Shown: one piece after another, positions 14,942-20,549 of the stretch
Position numbering within the stretch: the first letter of the stretch is position 1
Layout: each line of letters starts with the position of its first letter
Assembly: GCF_000787775.1 (NCBI RefSeq)
Contig: NZ_BBPM01000006.1
Coordinates: 190,708 to 229,768 of the forward strand
Reading direction: 5' to 3'
DNA from: Streptacidiphilus carbonis
GTDB lineage: Bacteria; Actinomycetota; Actinomycetes; Streptomycetales; Streptomycetaceae
DNA: 39,061 bases
The notes under the pieces: generated by a model
Told to the model about the DNA's origin: nothing
The model's database searches: none
The model's input: only the letters and a program-made list of their open reading frames with translations
Made by a program: the position numbers and the translations under genes

Positions 14942-16378
<1,437 letters not shown>

Positions 16379-16655: not shown

Positions 16656-18341
16656 ATGGCGACGACGACCGGACCGGAGAGCTCCAGGCGACCGGTGATC
16701 GTGACCGTGGACGACGACCCGGCGGTGTCCCGGGCCGTGGCCAGGGACCTCCGGCGCCGCTACGGCGAGGACCACCGTATCGTCCGGGCAGAGTCCGGCG
16801 CCTCGGCGCTTGAGGCGCTGCGGGAGATGAAGCTGCGCGGCGAGCTGGTCGCGGTGCTGCTGGCGGACCACCGGATGCCGGAGATGAACGGCATCGAGTT
16901 CCTGGAAGCGGCCATGGACATCTACCCCCAGGCCCGCCGGGTGCTGCTGACCGCCTACGCCGACACCGGCGCCGCCATCGACGCCATCAATGTGGTCGAC
17001 CTGGACCACTACCTGCTCAAGCCGTGGGACCCGCCCGAGGAGAAGCTCTACCCGGTGCTGGACAGCCTGCTGAAGGCCTGGCTGGCCGCCGACCCGCACC
17101 AGGTGGAGGAGACCAAGGTGGTCGGCCACCGCTGGTCGGCCCGCTCCTCGGAGGTCCGCGAGTTCCTGGCCCGCAACCAGGTCCCCTACCGCTGGTACCC
17201 GGTCACCGAGCCCGAGGGCCGGCAGCTGCTGGCGGCGGCCGGCGAGGACGGCAGCCGGCTGCCGGTGGTGGTCACCACCGACGGCGACGCGCTGGTCGAG
17301 CCCACCAACGAGGAGCTGGCCCAGCGGGTCGGCCTCTCCACCACCCCGGCCGCCGACTTCTACGACCTGATCGTCATCGGCGGCGGCCCGGCCGGCCTGG
17401 GCGCGGCCGTGTACGGGGCCTCCGAGGGGCTGCGCACCGTGCTGATCGAGCGCACCGCGACCGGCGGCCAGGCCGGGCAGAGCTCACGGATCGAGAACTA
17501 CCTCGGCTTCCCGGACGGCGTCTCCGGCTCCCAGCTCGCCGACCGGGCCCGGCGCCAGGCCACCAAGTTCGGCGCGGAGATCCTGACCGCCCGCGAGGTG
17601 ACCGGCTTCGAGGTCTGCGGCTCGGCCCGCACGGTCCGCTTCGCCGACGGCACCTCCATCTCCGCCCACACCGTGATCCTGGCCACCGGCGTCGCCTACC
17701 GGCAGCTGACCGCGGCCGGCACCGACGAGCTGACCGGGCGCGGGATCTTCTACGGAGCGGCGCTGACCGAGGCGGTGGGCTGCGCCGGTCAGGACGTGTA
17801 CGTCGTCGGCGGCGCCAACTCGGCCGGTCAGGCCGCGGTCTTCCTGGCCCGCGGCGCCAAGTCGGTGACCGTCCTGGTCCGCGGCGGGTCGCTGACCGCC
17901 TCCATGTCGCACTACCTGGTCCAGCAGGTCGAGGCCGACCCGGCGATCACGGTCAGGACCGGGACCGAGGTGGTCGCGGCCCGCGGCGAGGACCACCTGG
18001 AGGGGCTGACCCTGCTGGACACCGCGACCGGCCGCACCGAGGAGGTCGACGCCCAGTGGCTGTTCGTCTTCATCGGCGCGGTGCCGATGACCGACTGGCT
18101 CGACGGTGTGGTGCTCCGCGACGACCACGGATTCGTGCTGGCCGGCCCCGACCTGGGCGAAGCCGGCCAGCACTCCGGCGGCTGGCCCCTGGACCGCCCC
18201 CCGCACCACCTGGAGACCAGCGTCCCGGGCGTCTTCGTGGCCGGCGACGTCCGGGCGGAGTCCGCCAAACGCGTCGCCTCGGCCGTCGGCGAGGGCGCCA
18301 TGGCCGTCATGTTCGTCCACCGCTACCTGGACAAGCTCTGA
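16656..18341 (+). CDS. Response regulator fused to a thioredoxin-reductase-like flavoprotein
   Basis: 561 residues. Residues 12-140 are a receiver domain: Asp19-Asp21 acidic pocket, phosphoacceptor Asp71 (LLADHRMPEMNG), Thr99 and Lys122. Residues about 155-228 look like a glutaredoxin/thioredoxin-type fold (REFLARNQVPYRWYPV, LPVVVTTDG) with no cysteine pair. Residues 234-561 are a low-molecular-weight thioredoxin-reductase-like flavoprotein: FAD loop VIGGGPAGLGAA, TGGQAGQSSRIENYLGFP, second nucleotide loop VYVVGGANSAGQAA and VFVAGDVR near the end. Where true thioredoxin reductases carry CxxC, this one reads IFYGAALTEA, so it cannot reduce thioredoxin in the usual way. No DNA-binding domain is present. 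It is first in an operon with a histidine kinase and a UBP-type zinc finger protein. Confidence 0.93.
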   Translation: MATTTGPESSRRPVIVTVDDDPAVSRAVARDLRRRYGEDHRIVRAESGASALEALREMKLRGELVAVLLADHRMPEMNGIEFLEAAMDIYPQARRVLLTAYADTGAAIDAINVVDLDHYLLKPWDPPEEKLYPVLDSLLKAWLAADPHQVEETKVVGHRWSARSSEVREFLARNQVPYRWYPVTEPEGRQLLAAAGEDGSRLPVVVTTDGDALVEPTNEELAQRVGLSTTPAADFYDLIVIGGGPAGLGAAVYGASEGLRTVLIERTATGGQAGQSSRIENYLGFPDGVSGSQLADRARRQATKFGAEILTAREVTGFEVCGSARTVRFADGTSISAHTVILATGVAYRQLTAAGTDELTGRGIFYGAALTEAVGCAGQDVYVVGGANSAGQAAVFLARGAKSVTVLVRGGSLTASMSHYLVQQVEADPAITVRTGTEVVAARGEDHLEGLTLLDTATGRTEEVDAQWLFVFIGAVPMTDWLDGVVLRDDHGFVLAGPDLGEAGQHSGGWPLDRPPHHLETSVPGVFVAGDVRAESAKRVASAVGEGAMAVMFVHRYLDKL

Positions 18342-18347
18342 CAGGCG

Positions 18348-18398
18348 CCGGCGGGAGGCACGCCGCCGGAGCGGACTACCGCTGCCCTGCGGCAGTGG
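18348..18398 (+). other. Two hairpins in the intercistronic gap
   Basis: CCGGCGG/CCGCCGG (18348-18354 and 18363-18369) and CCGCTGCC/GGCAGTGG (18379-18386 and 18391-18398) can each fold. They could attenuate or protect the message between the flavoprotein and kinase genes. No T-tract follows. Confidence 0.35.
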
Positions 18399-18416
18399 AT
18401 ACGGGAGACTGGTCCC

Positions 18417-18464
18417 ATGGCAACCAGGAAGACGGAGTTGACGTCGGCTCGGGTCGGGCCGTGA
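18417..18464 (+). CDS. Possible 15-residue upstream ORF coupled to the kinase gene
   Basis: An ATG at 18417 has GGGAG at 18403-18407. It opens a short frame encoding [15 protein letters not shown], and its TGA overlaps the GTG start of the kinase gene (GTGA). It may be a leader that couples translation to the weakly preceded kinase start. Alternatively, a frameshift in the deposited sequence may separate the true N-terminus from the kinase frame. Nothing shows that the peptide has its own function. Confidence 0.35.
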   Translation: MATRKTELTSARVGP

Positions 18465-19972
18465 CGGGCGGGGCGGGCGGCGTCGCGGGGCAGTGTTCGC
18501 CGGAGGAGCTGCGGGGGCTGTTCCTGTTCGAGAAGCTGACGTTCGAGCAGTTGGCTTGGCTGTGCCGGAAGGGGCGGGTGGAGGCCTTCGAGCCGGGCCC
18601 GGTCTACACCGAGGGGGAGCCGGCCACCTGCTTCTACGTCATGGTCGAGGGCACGGTGGTGCTGTCGCACCGGGTCGGCCCCGACGACGTCGAGGTGAAC
18701 CGTTCCTCCAGTCCCGGGGTGTACGCGGGGGCGTTCCAGGCCTATCTGGGCGAGCGGGTCCCGCAGGTGTACATGAACTCGATGCGGGTGGTCTCGCCCT
18801 CGCGGTTCTTCGTGCTGTCGGCGCATGACTTCGCCGGGATGATGCACGACTGGTTCCCGATGGCCGAGCACCTGCTGGAGGGGCTCTTCTTCGGCACCCG
18901 GACCCTGCAGCAGGCGGTCGGCCAGCGCGAGCGGCTGCTCGCGCTGGGCACGCTGTCGGCAGGCCTCACCCATGAGTTGAACAACCCGGCCGCCGCGGCG
19001 GTGCGCGCCACCGCCGCGCTGCGCGAGCGGGTCGCGCAGATGCGCGGCGCGCTGGGCAAGGTGGCCGGCAAGTCCGGCAAGGCCGCCGGTCTCGACGAGC
19101 TGGTACGGCTGGAGGAGGAGGCGGTACGGGCCGCAGCCAAACAGCCGGTGCTGGGGCCGCTGGAGGCCTCCGACCGCGAGGACGCCCTCACCGACTGGCT
19201 GGACGACCACGAGGTGGCCGAGGGCTGGGAACTGGCCCCGGTGCTGGTCCAGGCCGGACTGGACGCGGACTGGCTGGAGCGGGTGGACGCGGCGATCGGC
19301 ACCGAGGGCCTGGCCTGGGCGCTCCGCTGGCTCACCCACGGCGTGGAGACGGAACTGCTGCTGGGCGAGATCGAGGCGGCGTCCTCGCGGATCTCCTCAC
19401 TGGTCGGCGCGGCCCGGCAGTACTCGCAGCTGGACCGCGCCCCCTACCAGCAGGTCGACCTGCACGAGCTGTTGGACAGCACCCTGGTCATCCTGGGCGG
19501 CAAGACCGGCCCCGGCATCACCGTGGTCAAGGACTACGACCGCTCGCTCCCCAGGGTGCCGGCCTTCGCCGCGGAGCTGAACCAGGTGTGGACCAACCTG
19601 ATCGACAACGCCCTGTACGCGATGGCCGGGCACGGCACGCTGACCATCAGCACCCGCGCCGACCACGACCGGGCGGTGATCGGCTTCCGCGACACCGGCC
19701 CCGGGGTGCCCGCGGACATCCAGGGACGGATCTTCGAGCCGTTCTTCACCAGCAAGCCGGTCGGCGACGGCACCGGGCTCGGGCTCGACATCTCCTGGCG
19801 GATCGTGGTGCACCGGCACCACGGCGACCTCCGGGTCGAGTCCGTCCCCGGCGACACCCTGTTCGAGGTGACGCTGCCGCTGACCGCACAGGACCCGGAC
19901 CAGGATCCGGACCGGAACGTCCGACAGGACGCCGACGACGTCAGAGACGCCAACCAGGAAGAGGCACGATGA
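18461..19972 (+). CDS. Histidine kinase with cyclic nucleotide-binding-type sensor domain
   Basis: 503 residues from the GTG at 18461, which overlaps the stop of a 15-codon upstream frame. Residues about 14-140 form a cNMP-binding-type beta roll ([39 protein letters not shown]). The H-box is [13 protein letters not shown] with His171, of the NtrB-like kind. A long insert (about 205-300) precedes the ATP-binding domain: [41 protein letters not shown]. No membrane segment is seen, so it is cytosolic. The natural partner is the receiver domain of the flavoprotein encoded upstream. The stop overlaps the zinc finger ATG (ATGA). Whether the sensor binds a cyclic nucleotide is unknown. Confidence 0.92.
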
Positions 19973-20322
19973 GCGACAACCCGGCGATCGACCCGACCGC
20001 GGTACCGAGCGGTGCCGGCTGTGCGGAGTGCGACGCGGTCGGCGGATGGTGGTTCCATCTGCGGCGCTGCGCGCTCTGCGGCCACATCGGCTGCTGCGAC
20101 AGCTCGCCCTCACAGCACGCCAGCGCGCACGCGGCCGCCTCCGGCCATCCGGTGATCACCAGCTTCGAGCCCGGCGAGGCCTGGTTCTGGAGCTACCCCG
20201 ACGAGCAGTTCTACGAGAGCGGACCGGACCTGGCCGGCCCCGAGCACCACCCGCTGGACCAGCCCACTCCCGGGCCGGCCGGCCGGGTGCCCGCGGACTG
20301 GCGACAGCACATCCACCAGTAG
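19969..20322 (+). CDS. UBP-type zinc finger protein
   Basis: 117 residues, ATG overlapping the kinase stop. Most of the protein is one zf-UBP domain. Candidate zinc ligands are Cys18 and Cys21 (GCAEC), Cys34 and Cys37 ([12 protein letters not shown]), Cys42 or Cys43, His50 (SPSQHASAH), His54 and His60. The flanking aromatic block GWWFHLRR and the downstream [12 protein letters not shown] are typical. In eukaryotes this fold binds the free C-terminal diglycine of ubiquitin. Bacterial members have no assigned ligand that I know of. A C-terminal tail ([13 protein letters not shown]) is short and polar. Translational coupling to the kinase implies a role in the same pathway. Confidence 0.93.
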
Positions 20323-20426: not shown

Positions 20427-20549
20427 ATGAAGGTCCGTCAGTCGATCCGCTCGTTGAAGGCCAAGCCGGGCGCACAGGTCGTCCGCCGGCGCGGCCGGGT
20501 GTTCGTCATCAACCGCCGCGACCCCCGCTTCAAGGCCCGTCAGGGCTGA
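20427..20549 (+). CDS. rpmJ: Zinc-independent ribosomal protein bL36 paralogue
   Basis: 40 residues with a strong AGGAGGAGAGGA upstream. It starts [19 protein letters not shown] and ends RFKARQG, matching bL36. The zinc-binding Cys/His set of the standard form is absent, so this is the C-minus paralogue that replaces bL36 when zinc is scarce. Such paralogues are usually Zur-repressed, but I see no Zur-like AT-rich palindrome in the 100 bases upstream. It sits directly after the zinc finger operon. Confidence 0.95.

Follow-up and report, generated by a model that had tools for sequence, protein, structure and literature searches.

Two-component systems with enzymatic output combine a histidine kinase with a receiver joined to an effector, an arrangement shared by the locus analysed here. 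In contrast, the effector here is a cysteine-less flavoprotein, and we know of no characterised two-component system with an effector of this kind; a literature search likewise found no such system, though the gene neighbourhood may have been mentioned earlier. The individual proteins have closer described relatives. The flavoprotein shares the FAD/NAD(P) fold of low-Mr thioredoxin reductase (TrxB), with 35% identity to the genome's own enzyme (TrxR) over 330 columns; like AhpF/NTRC-type proteins it holds TrxR-like and thioredoxin (Trx)-fold domains in one chain, and AhpF is among its top Foldseek matches. The best profile match of its middle domain is 2lqo, which we take to be mycoredoxin-1. 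Proteins of the cNMP-Trx-TrxR-like type share the same Trx-TrxR-like core and also lie beside zf-UBP genes, and the zinc finger belongs to the same small bacterial zf-UBP family as the 2ida protein. Burroughs and others in 2011 reportedly treated prokaryotic treble-clef domains, and Hammerstad and Hersleth in 2021 are said to have treated TrxR-like folds, both possibly relevant here.

We lean towards reading the locus as a two-component pathway with a thiol-free flavoprotein output and the zinc finger as a partner, in which the output would be an enzyme-like protein instead of a transcription factor. If so, the histidine kinase would control a flavoprotein with no transcription factor in between.

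The three-gene locus and its neighbourhood

Three co-directional genes, for a flavoprotein, a kinase and a zinc finger, span positions 16656-20322 in the ORF list of the window (the whole stretch of 39,061 nucleotides that was analysed):

16656..18341, + strand: flavoprotein of 561 aa (ATG at 16656), with a receiver, a cysteine-less glutaredoxin/mycoredoxin-like domain and a cysteine-less TrxR-like domain
18418..18465, + strand: ORF of 15 codons, its stop sharing bases with the GTG start of the kinase (GTGA)
18461..19972, + strand: cytosolic histidine kinase of 503 aa, with a CRP-like N-terminal domain, the His171 H-box and HATPase_c
19969..20322, + strand: zf-UBP protein of 117 aa (PF02148, 1.4e-13), with an ATGA overlap with the kinase

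The kinase ends at 19972, and GTG 18461 was taken as the most likely choice of start. The zinc-finger start lies inside the kinase stop (ATGA, 19969-19972), and a 119-bp gap separates the flavoprotein from the kinase, across which the 15-codon ORF may provide translational coupling. The initial annotation had described the three genes and the ATGA overlap at 16656-20322, where the ORFs indeed lie; its observation of a three-gene locus is confirmed, and its interpretation as a whole is partly supported.

The tight linkage that it had claimed extends across the host's order, in which we surveyed 69 loci with a close orthologue, from 68 of 119 genomes (including a broken flavoprotein in L087, a split kinase in L037 and a broken zinc finger in L031). 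All three genes were adjacent in 55/69 loci, beyond chance, and the kinase adjoined the flavoprotein (within 500 bp) in 68/69. With gene starts picked by script, 4-base overlaps were present in the 55 three-gene loci at 52 kinase-zinc finger junctions and 50 flavoprotein-kinase junctions. All three genes also occur together in distant Actinomycetota and in one Acidobacteriota locus, and the system is also present in a cyanobacterium. As for a grouping of the three families in other genomes, it was borne out for the flavoprotein and kinase (across 159 phylum genomes, 22/23 kinase matches lay beside such a flavoprotein or in its gene array). For the zinc finger it held partially (in the same genomes, 10/41 zf-UBP places were <1 kb from such a flavoprotein or separated from it by the kinase alone).

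This last count favours a reading in which the pathway consists of the flavoprotein and kinase alone, with the zinc finger travelling alongside as a loose passenger that serves some separate function. The zinc finger is also missing from 13 of the 69 loci where it could have been seen; all 7 from genus g4 lack it, as do 6 from family f1. Of 80 zf-UBP loci, 52 had none of four sought partner families within the DNA examined, in a table for which the kinase query from L127 was trimmed of its fused zinc finger, and others lay beside transporters (12 had an MFS-type neighbour and 8 a CPA1-type neighbour). However, we consider this reading rather unlikely, given the frequent 4-base overlap with the kinase, the conserved tail specific to operon-type copies (described below), and the finding that zf-UBP follows the flavoprotein even where no kinase adjoins, both in A' loci (6/6, 5 with a 4-base overlap) and beside the paralogous cNMP-type flavoprotein. 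In addition, a cNMP-kinase and zf-UBP are fused in one ORF in a single draft genome (G214, locus L127), one of six kinase-positive genomes of its order. In the favoured two-component pathway, the operon, overlap and fusion suggest that the zinc finger would be a regulatory or docking partner of the kinase and flavoprotein.

Kinase and receiver

16695..17087, + strand: receiver domain, residues about 14-144, with acidic pair Asp19-Asp20 and Lys122 (PF00072, 1.7e-13; model)
16866..16868, + strand: codon of Asp71, the predicted phosphorylation site
18500..18850, + strand: CRP/cNMP-like domain of the kinase, residues about 14-130, pocket motif not conserved
18971..18973, + strand: codon of His171, invariant in 87/87 aligned kinases

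The proposed pairing of a histidine kinase with a receiver (Asp71) agrees with Pfam matches over cut-off to HATPase_c (1.5e-21) and Response_reg (1.7e-13), and no DNA-binding domain was found with the receiver, as had been stated. Asp71 lies in the receiver pocket (ADHRMP begins at residue 70), and the receiver site set is present (acidic pair, Asp, Thr/Ser, Lys).

Cyclic-nucleotide sensing, which the initial annotation had ascribed to the kinase, was rejected as the default for the window kinase, as the pocket motif is gone and the Pfam score is under cut-off. Its cNMP_binding match is 4.8e-5 (23.7 bits vs a cut-off of 27.5), and residues 1-150 reach 27.0 bits against PF00027 (cut-off 27.5), compared with 28.0 and 28.8 in near relatives, 77 in L127 and 65.1 in L129. 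On visual inspection the motif GE...PRxA, presumably the phosphate-binding pocket motif of the CRP/FNR-type cNMP-binding domain, could be seen in L127-L129 but not in the window kinase; the CRP-like domain also matches DNR weakly (4e-4). In sister flavoproteins the N-terminal place is taken by a cNMP domain (over Pfam cut-off in 8/8 tested), which fits a swappable input module. We propose that the kinase's input is a CRP-like domain without a cyclic-nucleotide pocket, that the kinase would phosphorylate Asp71, and that the receiver would act as an allosteric input of the flavoprotein.

The receiver site is intact in 86/87 relatives with a kinase within 300 bp, the exception being cut by a contig end. 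The 42 relatives without such a kinase comprise 10 with an intact receiver, 17 with another N-terminal domain and 15 with a damaged site in the receiver's place (8 of the 15 were scanned, with a weak Pfam receiver in 2 and none in 6). Six A'-type intact receivers have a kinase about 22 kb distant, and in L163 the receiver is intact and no kinase was found. On the tree, kinase presence needs two changes and the intact site one, giving only one or two independent switches, and an independent-pairs test of kinase against intact receiver was not significant with 2 pairs (69 rows chosen from 129, 48 with both labels). In favour of the pairing, distances of REC and of the kinase DHp go together once the flavin domain is accounted for (partial r 0.50, vs 0.27 for the CA domain). 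Against it, stronger partial correlations linked REC to the CRP-like domain of the kinase (0.70) and, controlling for REC, the flavin domain to DHp (0.57). These values, from 24/81 pairs, are only weakly informative.

The signal could also run in reverse, with the flavoprotein sensing NAD(P)H or oxidants, the receiver serving as a phosphate sink or brake, and another receiver being the kinase's real target. The retention of FAD/NAD(P) motifs without relay cysteines is sensor-like, and the genome has other receiver matches besides that of the flavoprotein. However, the kinase nearly always adjoins the flavoprotein receiver, and sister families carry a ligand-type cNMP input at the same N-terminal place, suggesting that it is the flavoprotein that is regulated. 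We judged a reversed signal unlikely.

The flavoprotein and its relay positions

17103..17345, + strand: Trx-fold domain, residues about 150-230, CxxC positions Ser161...Ser164 (profile match to 2lqo, secondary structure in the model)
17355..18329, + strand: TrxR-like FAD/NAD(P) domain, residues 234-558
17757..17768, + strand: Ala368-Ala369-Leu370-Thr371, occupying the CxxC position of TrxR, with Glu372 next (aligned to the genome's own TrxR as a control)
17781..17783, + strand: Cys376, the most widely conserved cysteine (106/129)

The flavoprotein had been called TrxR-like, which holds for its fold (Pyr_redox_2, 6.1e-30, over cut-off); however, both CxxC motifs are lost, and the Trx-fold domain had been overlooked. 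As a single sequence this domain gave no credible solved relative and chance beta-lactamase matches, and as a 15-sequence profile it matched 2lqo ('putative glutaredoxin Rv3198.1') at 1.6e-9, with Pfam Glutaredoxin hits in 3/15 members (best 1.3e-4). Judging from profile and model, the middle domain is a glutaredoxin/mycoredoxin-type thioredoxin fold.

We aligned 129 flavoproteins (8 of 137 were omitted, all <481 aa). None carries a cysteine at residues 161-165, where a CxxC or CxxS was sought, and a relay cysteine at either CxxC motif was found in 0/129. The genome's own TrxR, used as a control, has CATC where the flavoprotein has Ala368-Thr371. All four relay cysteines are substituted, mostly by Ser, Thr or Ala, with the FAD and nucleotide motifs retained (in the TrxR-like domain, the Rossmann motifs for FAD and NAD(P) by Pfam and conserved glycine motifs). 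Other residues are strongly conserved (Gly157 in 129, Ser418 in 127, Trp481 in 126 and Met417 in 124). The protein scores 218 bits against NCBIfam TIGR01292 (TRX_reduct), below the 343.45 cut-off. A thioredoxin reductase identity was ruled out, as the redox-active CxxC is absent, and with all relay cysteines lost, thioredoxin-reductase chemistry should not be assumed. Sequence and fold suggest descent from an NAD(P)H-FAD-CxxC-glutaredoxin relay. As the relay cysteines are replaced and the FAD and nucleotide motifs kept, we would expect the protein either to carry out NAD(P)H/flavin chemistry without thiols or to serve as a switch responding to NAD(P)H/flavin state. If this is true, a complete thiol relay has lost all its cysteines and is nevertheless conserved across phyla, which to our knowledge is unusual.

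It is quite improbable that the flavoprotein is an ordinary thiol-disulfide reductase, whether working through Cys376 or relying on a separate low-molecular-weight thiol, for instance mycothiol. Its middle domain is nearest a mycoredoxin-type protein, a paralogous operon encodes a thioredoxin, and on a Tsukamurella plasmid the next gene after the operon is annotated as S-(hydroxymethyl)mycothiol dehydrogenase. However, that dehydrogenase matched only L218 itself and 3 other searched loci (those at 29-31% identity), and Cys376, though widely kept, is missing in 23/129; the CxxC positions are free of cysteine in all 129. The system also occurs in a cyanobacterium and in one locus of Acidobacteriota, groups that are not known to make mycothiol.

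The zinc finger, and the locus beside known systems

20083..20085, + strand: His39, aligned with the ubiquitin-tail Arg of USP5
20218..20319, + strand: conserved C-terminal tail of the operon-type zinc finger (54 aligned orthologues, omitting the broken copy of L031)

The third product was correctly called a UBP zinc finger: its zf-UBP match (1.4e-13) is over cut-off, it has the Cys/His zinc-ligand positions of the family, its best solved relative is 2ida (4.3e-25), and it is related to USP5 by sequence (8e-4). The suggested ubiquitin-like reading of a C-terminal diglycine fared worse, as the USP5 pocket Arg (which we take to be Arg221) is replaced by His in 141/151 zf-UBP proteins and kept as Arg in 3 (2 of 153 fell outside the motif pattern). 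Binding of a C-terminal peptide tail, such as the diglycine of Pup or another, would link the operon to protein tagging, and it gains from the true zf-UBP family membership, the aromatic residues retained in the pocket region and the presence of Pup in the genome. With that His substitution, though, reading of a ubiquitin or Pup tail is not supported, and the zf-UBP family also occurs in phyla that are not known to have Pup; we regard tail binding as a poor prospect. The zinc finger would then be no ubiquitin-tail reader of known kind, and the operon would offer a defined bacterial setting for finding zf-UBP ligands outside the ubiquitin world. A role in anti-phage defence was rejected, as PADLOC matched none of the three proteins and PHROGs matched only receiver, kinase and flavoprotein parts, with none for the zinc finger; so was a zinc-starvation link via the neighbouring L36 gene, which no searched locus other than the window carried.

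A broader proposal, which we put forward tentatively and hold to be doubtful as a whole, is that bacteria stripped an NAD(P)H-FAD-glutaredoxin relay of its four cysteines and converted it into an allosteric NAD(P)H/flavin switch. Its thiol-free descendants, gated by phosphorylation, would make up a class that is widely distributed but not yet described, with exchangeable inputs (receiver, cNMP or decayed receiver) and a zf-UBP partner reading a new, non-ubiquitin ligand.

Set against known systems, the flavoprotein differs from TrxB in having no CxxC, in scoring below the TRX_reduct cut-off, and in bearing receiver and Trx-fold domains. AhpF has tandem Trx folds with CxxC that feed a CxxC reductase, whereas the flavoprotein has a single Trx fold in the model, lacks cysteine at the redox positions of both domains and carries an N-terminal receiver. 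The CxxC of 2lqo aligns to Ser-x-x-Ser/Thr in the flavoprotein family, and the operon-type zinc fingers add a conserved C-terminal tail compared with 2ida. The cNMP-Trx-TrxR-like proteins differ in their cNMP-type input and in having no adjacent kinase in the loci seen. Those checked are also without CxxC, so the label 'cyclic nucleotide-binding domain-containing thioredoxin-disulfide reductase' is misleading for them; family members are publicly named thioredoxin-disulfide reductase, and the evidence indicates another chemistry.

The operon and its surroundings

The operon consists of three plus-strand genes, the last two of which overlap in the window by the sequence ATGA:

16656-18341, +, flavoprotein gene; Response_reg and Pyr_redox_2 (Pfam)
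18461-19972, +, kinase gene; HATPase_c, with cNMP_binding below threshold (Pfam)
19969-20322, +, zinc-finger gene; zf-UBP (Pfam)

Most orthologues join the flavoprotein and kinase genes by a direct 4-base overlap; at that place the window has a 15-codon ORF (18418-18465), whose terminal GTGA falls on the start of the kinase gene. A c-di-AMP riboswitch (RF00379, 58.8 bits; 16214-16371, minus strand) lies in the leader of a divergent gene for a transglycosylase(Rpf)/LysM/NlpC-P60 protein (14942-16207, minus strand), and the intergenic region is common to this leader and the operon. Directly 3' of the zinc-finger gene lies a gene for a type B ribosomal protein L36 without cysteines (20427-20549), which was not found at the other loci searched. 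A full-text literature search gave no paper on the three-gene set among the matches listed, and our claim of novelty is limited to that search.

Conservation of the gene set

The order sample comprised 119 genomes, including the host's own. Matches were found in 75/119 genomes for the flavoprotein (E ≤ 1e-60), 69/119 for the kinase (E ≤ 1e-60) and 112/119 for zf-UBP (E ≤ 1e-5). Close orthologues (identity of at least 66%) made up 69 loci from 68 genomes, the window counted. The kinase lay within 500 bp of the flavoprotein in 68 of these loci, the exception being cut by a contig end, and the zinc finger lay within 500 bp of the kinase in 55/69. Among these 55, kinase and zinc finger overlapped by 4 bases in 52, and flavoprotein and kinase did so in 50. 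The 14 loci lacking the zinc finger were one at a contig end, all seven of one genus (g4; L072-L078) and six of family f1. A divergent universal stress protein gene was present in at least 41/69 loci within the 1.5 kb upstream examined.

Across 159 genomes of the phylum, 22/23 kinase matches adjoined such a flavoprotein or shared an array with it, the remaining one being a second copy in G191, and 10/41 zf-UBP places were no more than 1 kb from a flavoprotein of this kind or were separated from it by the kinase alone. All three genes occur together again in distant families (genomes G217, G214 and G162). At one locus (L123, genome G245), the cNMP-type kinase occurs three times in tandem beside a single REC-flavoprotein.

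The complete set is also found on plasmids of Streptomyces fungicidicus and Tsukamurella; on those of Caballeronia, Deinococcus aetherius and Gloeothece, the gene next to the flavoprotein encodes a kinase with cNMP and HATPase_c domains. The flavoprotein of a Nostoc plasmid is separated from an ATP-binding protein by two genes, one of them for a transposase. At the Tsukamurella locus (L218, 8580-10288), annotated S-(hydroxymethyl)mycothiol dehydrogenase and MBL-fold hydrolase genes lie 3' of the operon; they were not seen adjoining the other operons searched.

The zinc finger and variant loci

The zinc finger is a true zf-UBP family member (2ida, 4.3e-25; USP5, 8e-4). At the place of USP5 Arg221, which we take to be the ubiquitin-tail arginine position, 141/151 zf-UBP sequences have His and 3/151 have Arg; the C-terminal tail is conserved in operon-type zinc fingers (54 aligned). 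In G214, kinase and zf-UBP are fused in a single ORF with all three Pfam domains. Within its order, 6/36 genomes have a kinase match and one has the fusion; in another of its members, G285, the zinc finger is directly downstream of the kinase.

A zf-UBP alignment was also scanned against the genome collection. By title, the best 80 of 587 confirmed loci came from Actinomycetota, Acidobacteriota, Chloroflexi, proteobacteria, one cyanobacterium, one archaeon and others. The flavoprotein family was within the fetched DNA at 19 of these 80, with the kinase also present at six (L135, L136, L137, L159, L187 and L198, the last titled Acidobacteriia). A CPA1 antiporter was near zf-UBP at 8 of the 80, and none of the four partner families searched for was found at 52, some of them on short contigs. 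When neighbouring ORFs were clustered, 12 loci had a member of an MFS group and 22 a member of a broader flavoprotein group. Genes for zf-UBP were close to DHA2-type MFS exporters or CPA1 Na+/H+ antiporters at L141, L145, L164, L173, L189, L202, L206, L212 and L168, L200, L204. These exporter and antiporter neighbours suggest a wider role for the small zinc finger.

The host genome (8.46 Mb) has three zf-UBP genes, one of them in a paralogous operon (L012, C63, 8764-14125; also L231) encoding ClpB, thioredoxin, zf-UBP and a cNMP-Trx-TrxR-like protein likewise without CxxC; here too the zinc finger goes with a flavoprotein that has no kinase next to it. In family f1 genomes, a variant version (L081-L086 with L098-L101) places zf-UBP and REC-flavoprotein inside a ~22-kb cluster with GlgX, AGE epimerase, GMC oxidoreductase and DJ-1/PfpI genes; at 6/6 such loci the zinc finger is beside the flavoprotein with no adjacent kinase. 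GlgX and AGE neighbours recur on the Nostoc and Gloeothece plasmids (L214, L219). In 15 further relatives (L088-L097, L112, L130-L133), the domain in the receiver place has a damaged phosphorylation site; no kinase was found near these, and of 8 scanned just 2 gave a Pfam receiver match, a weak one.

A flavoprotein without the relay cysteines

The predicted flavoprotein structure (mean pLDDT 82, 17 sequences) runs from the receiver through a beta-alpha-beta-alpha-beta-beta-alpha domain (153-224), overlooked in the initial annotation, to the TrxR-like domain. The best match of the middle-domain profile (15 sequences) was 2lqo (1.6e-9), listed as putative glutaredoxin Rv3198.1, which we take to be mycoredoxin-1; further matches, other glutaredoxins among them, were at 6e-4 and weaker. 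The CxxC of 2lqo aligns with Ser161-x-x-Ser164. None of 129 relatives has Cys at 161-165 (Ser161 in 120), and none has it at 368 or 371 of the TrxR-like domain, where Ala/Ser368-x-x-Thr/Ser371 replaces CxxC in most. Met417 (124), Ser418 (127), Tyr420 (122), Trp481 (126), Glu372 (118/129) and Cys376 (106/129) are conserved. The glycine motifs for FAD and nucleotide are retained. The flavoprotein has thus preserved a thiol relay's cofactor motifs and lost its thiols.

The phosphorylation residues are conserved, and the kinase would transfer phosphate to Asp71 of the flavoprotein, whose receiver would control the attached thiol-free NAD(P)H/flavin protein, with the zinc finger as a putative partner. 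Sister proteins have a cNMP domain at the same N-terminal place, which suggests that this place is an input module.

Foldseek ranked thioredoxin reductases and AhpF highest for the flavoprotein model. The host's own TrxR, which adjoins a thioredoxin ORF, has CATC at the position where the flavoprotein is without CxxC.
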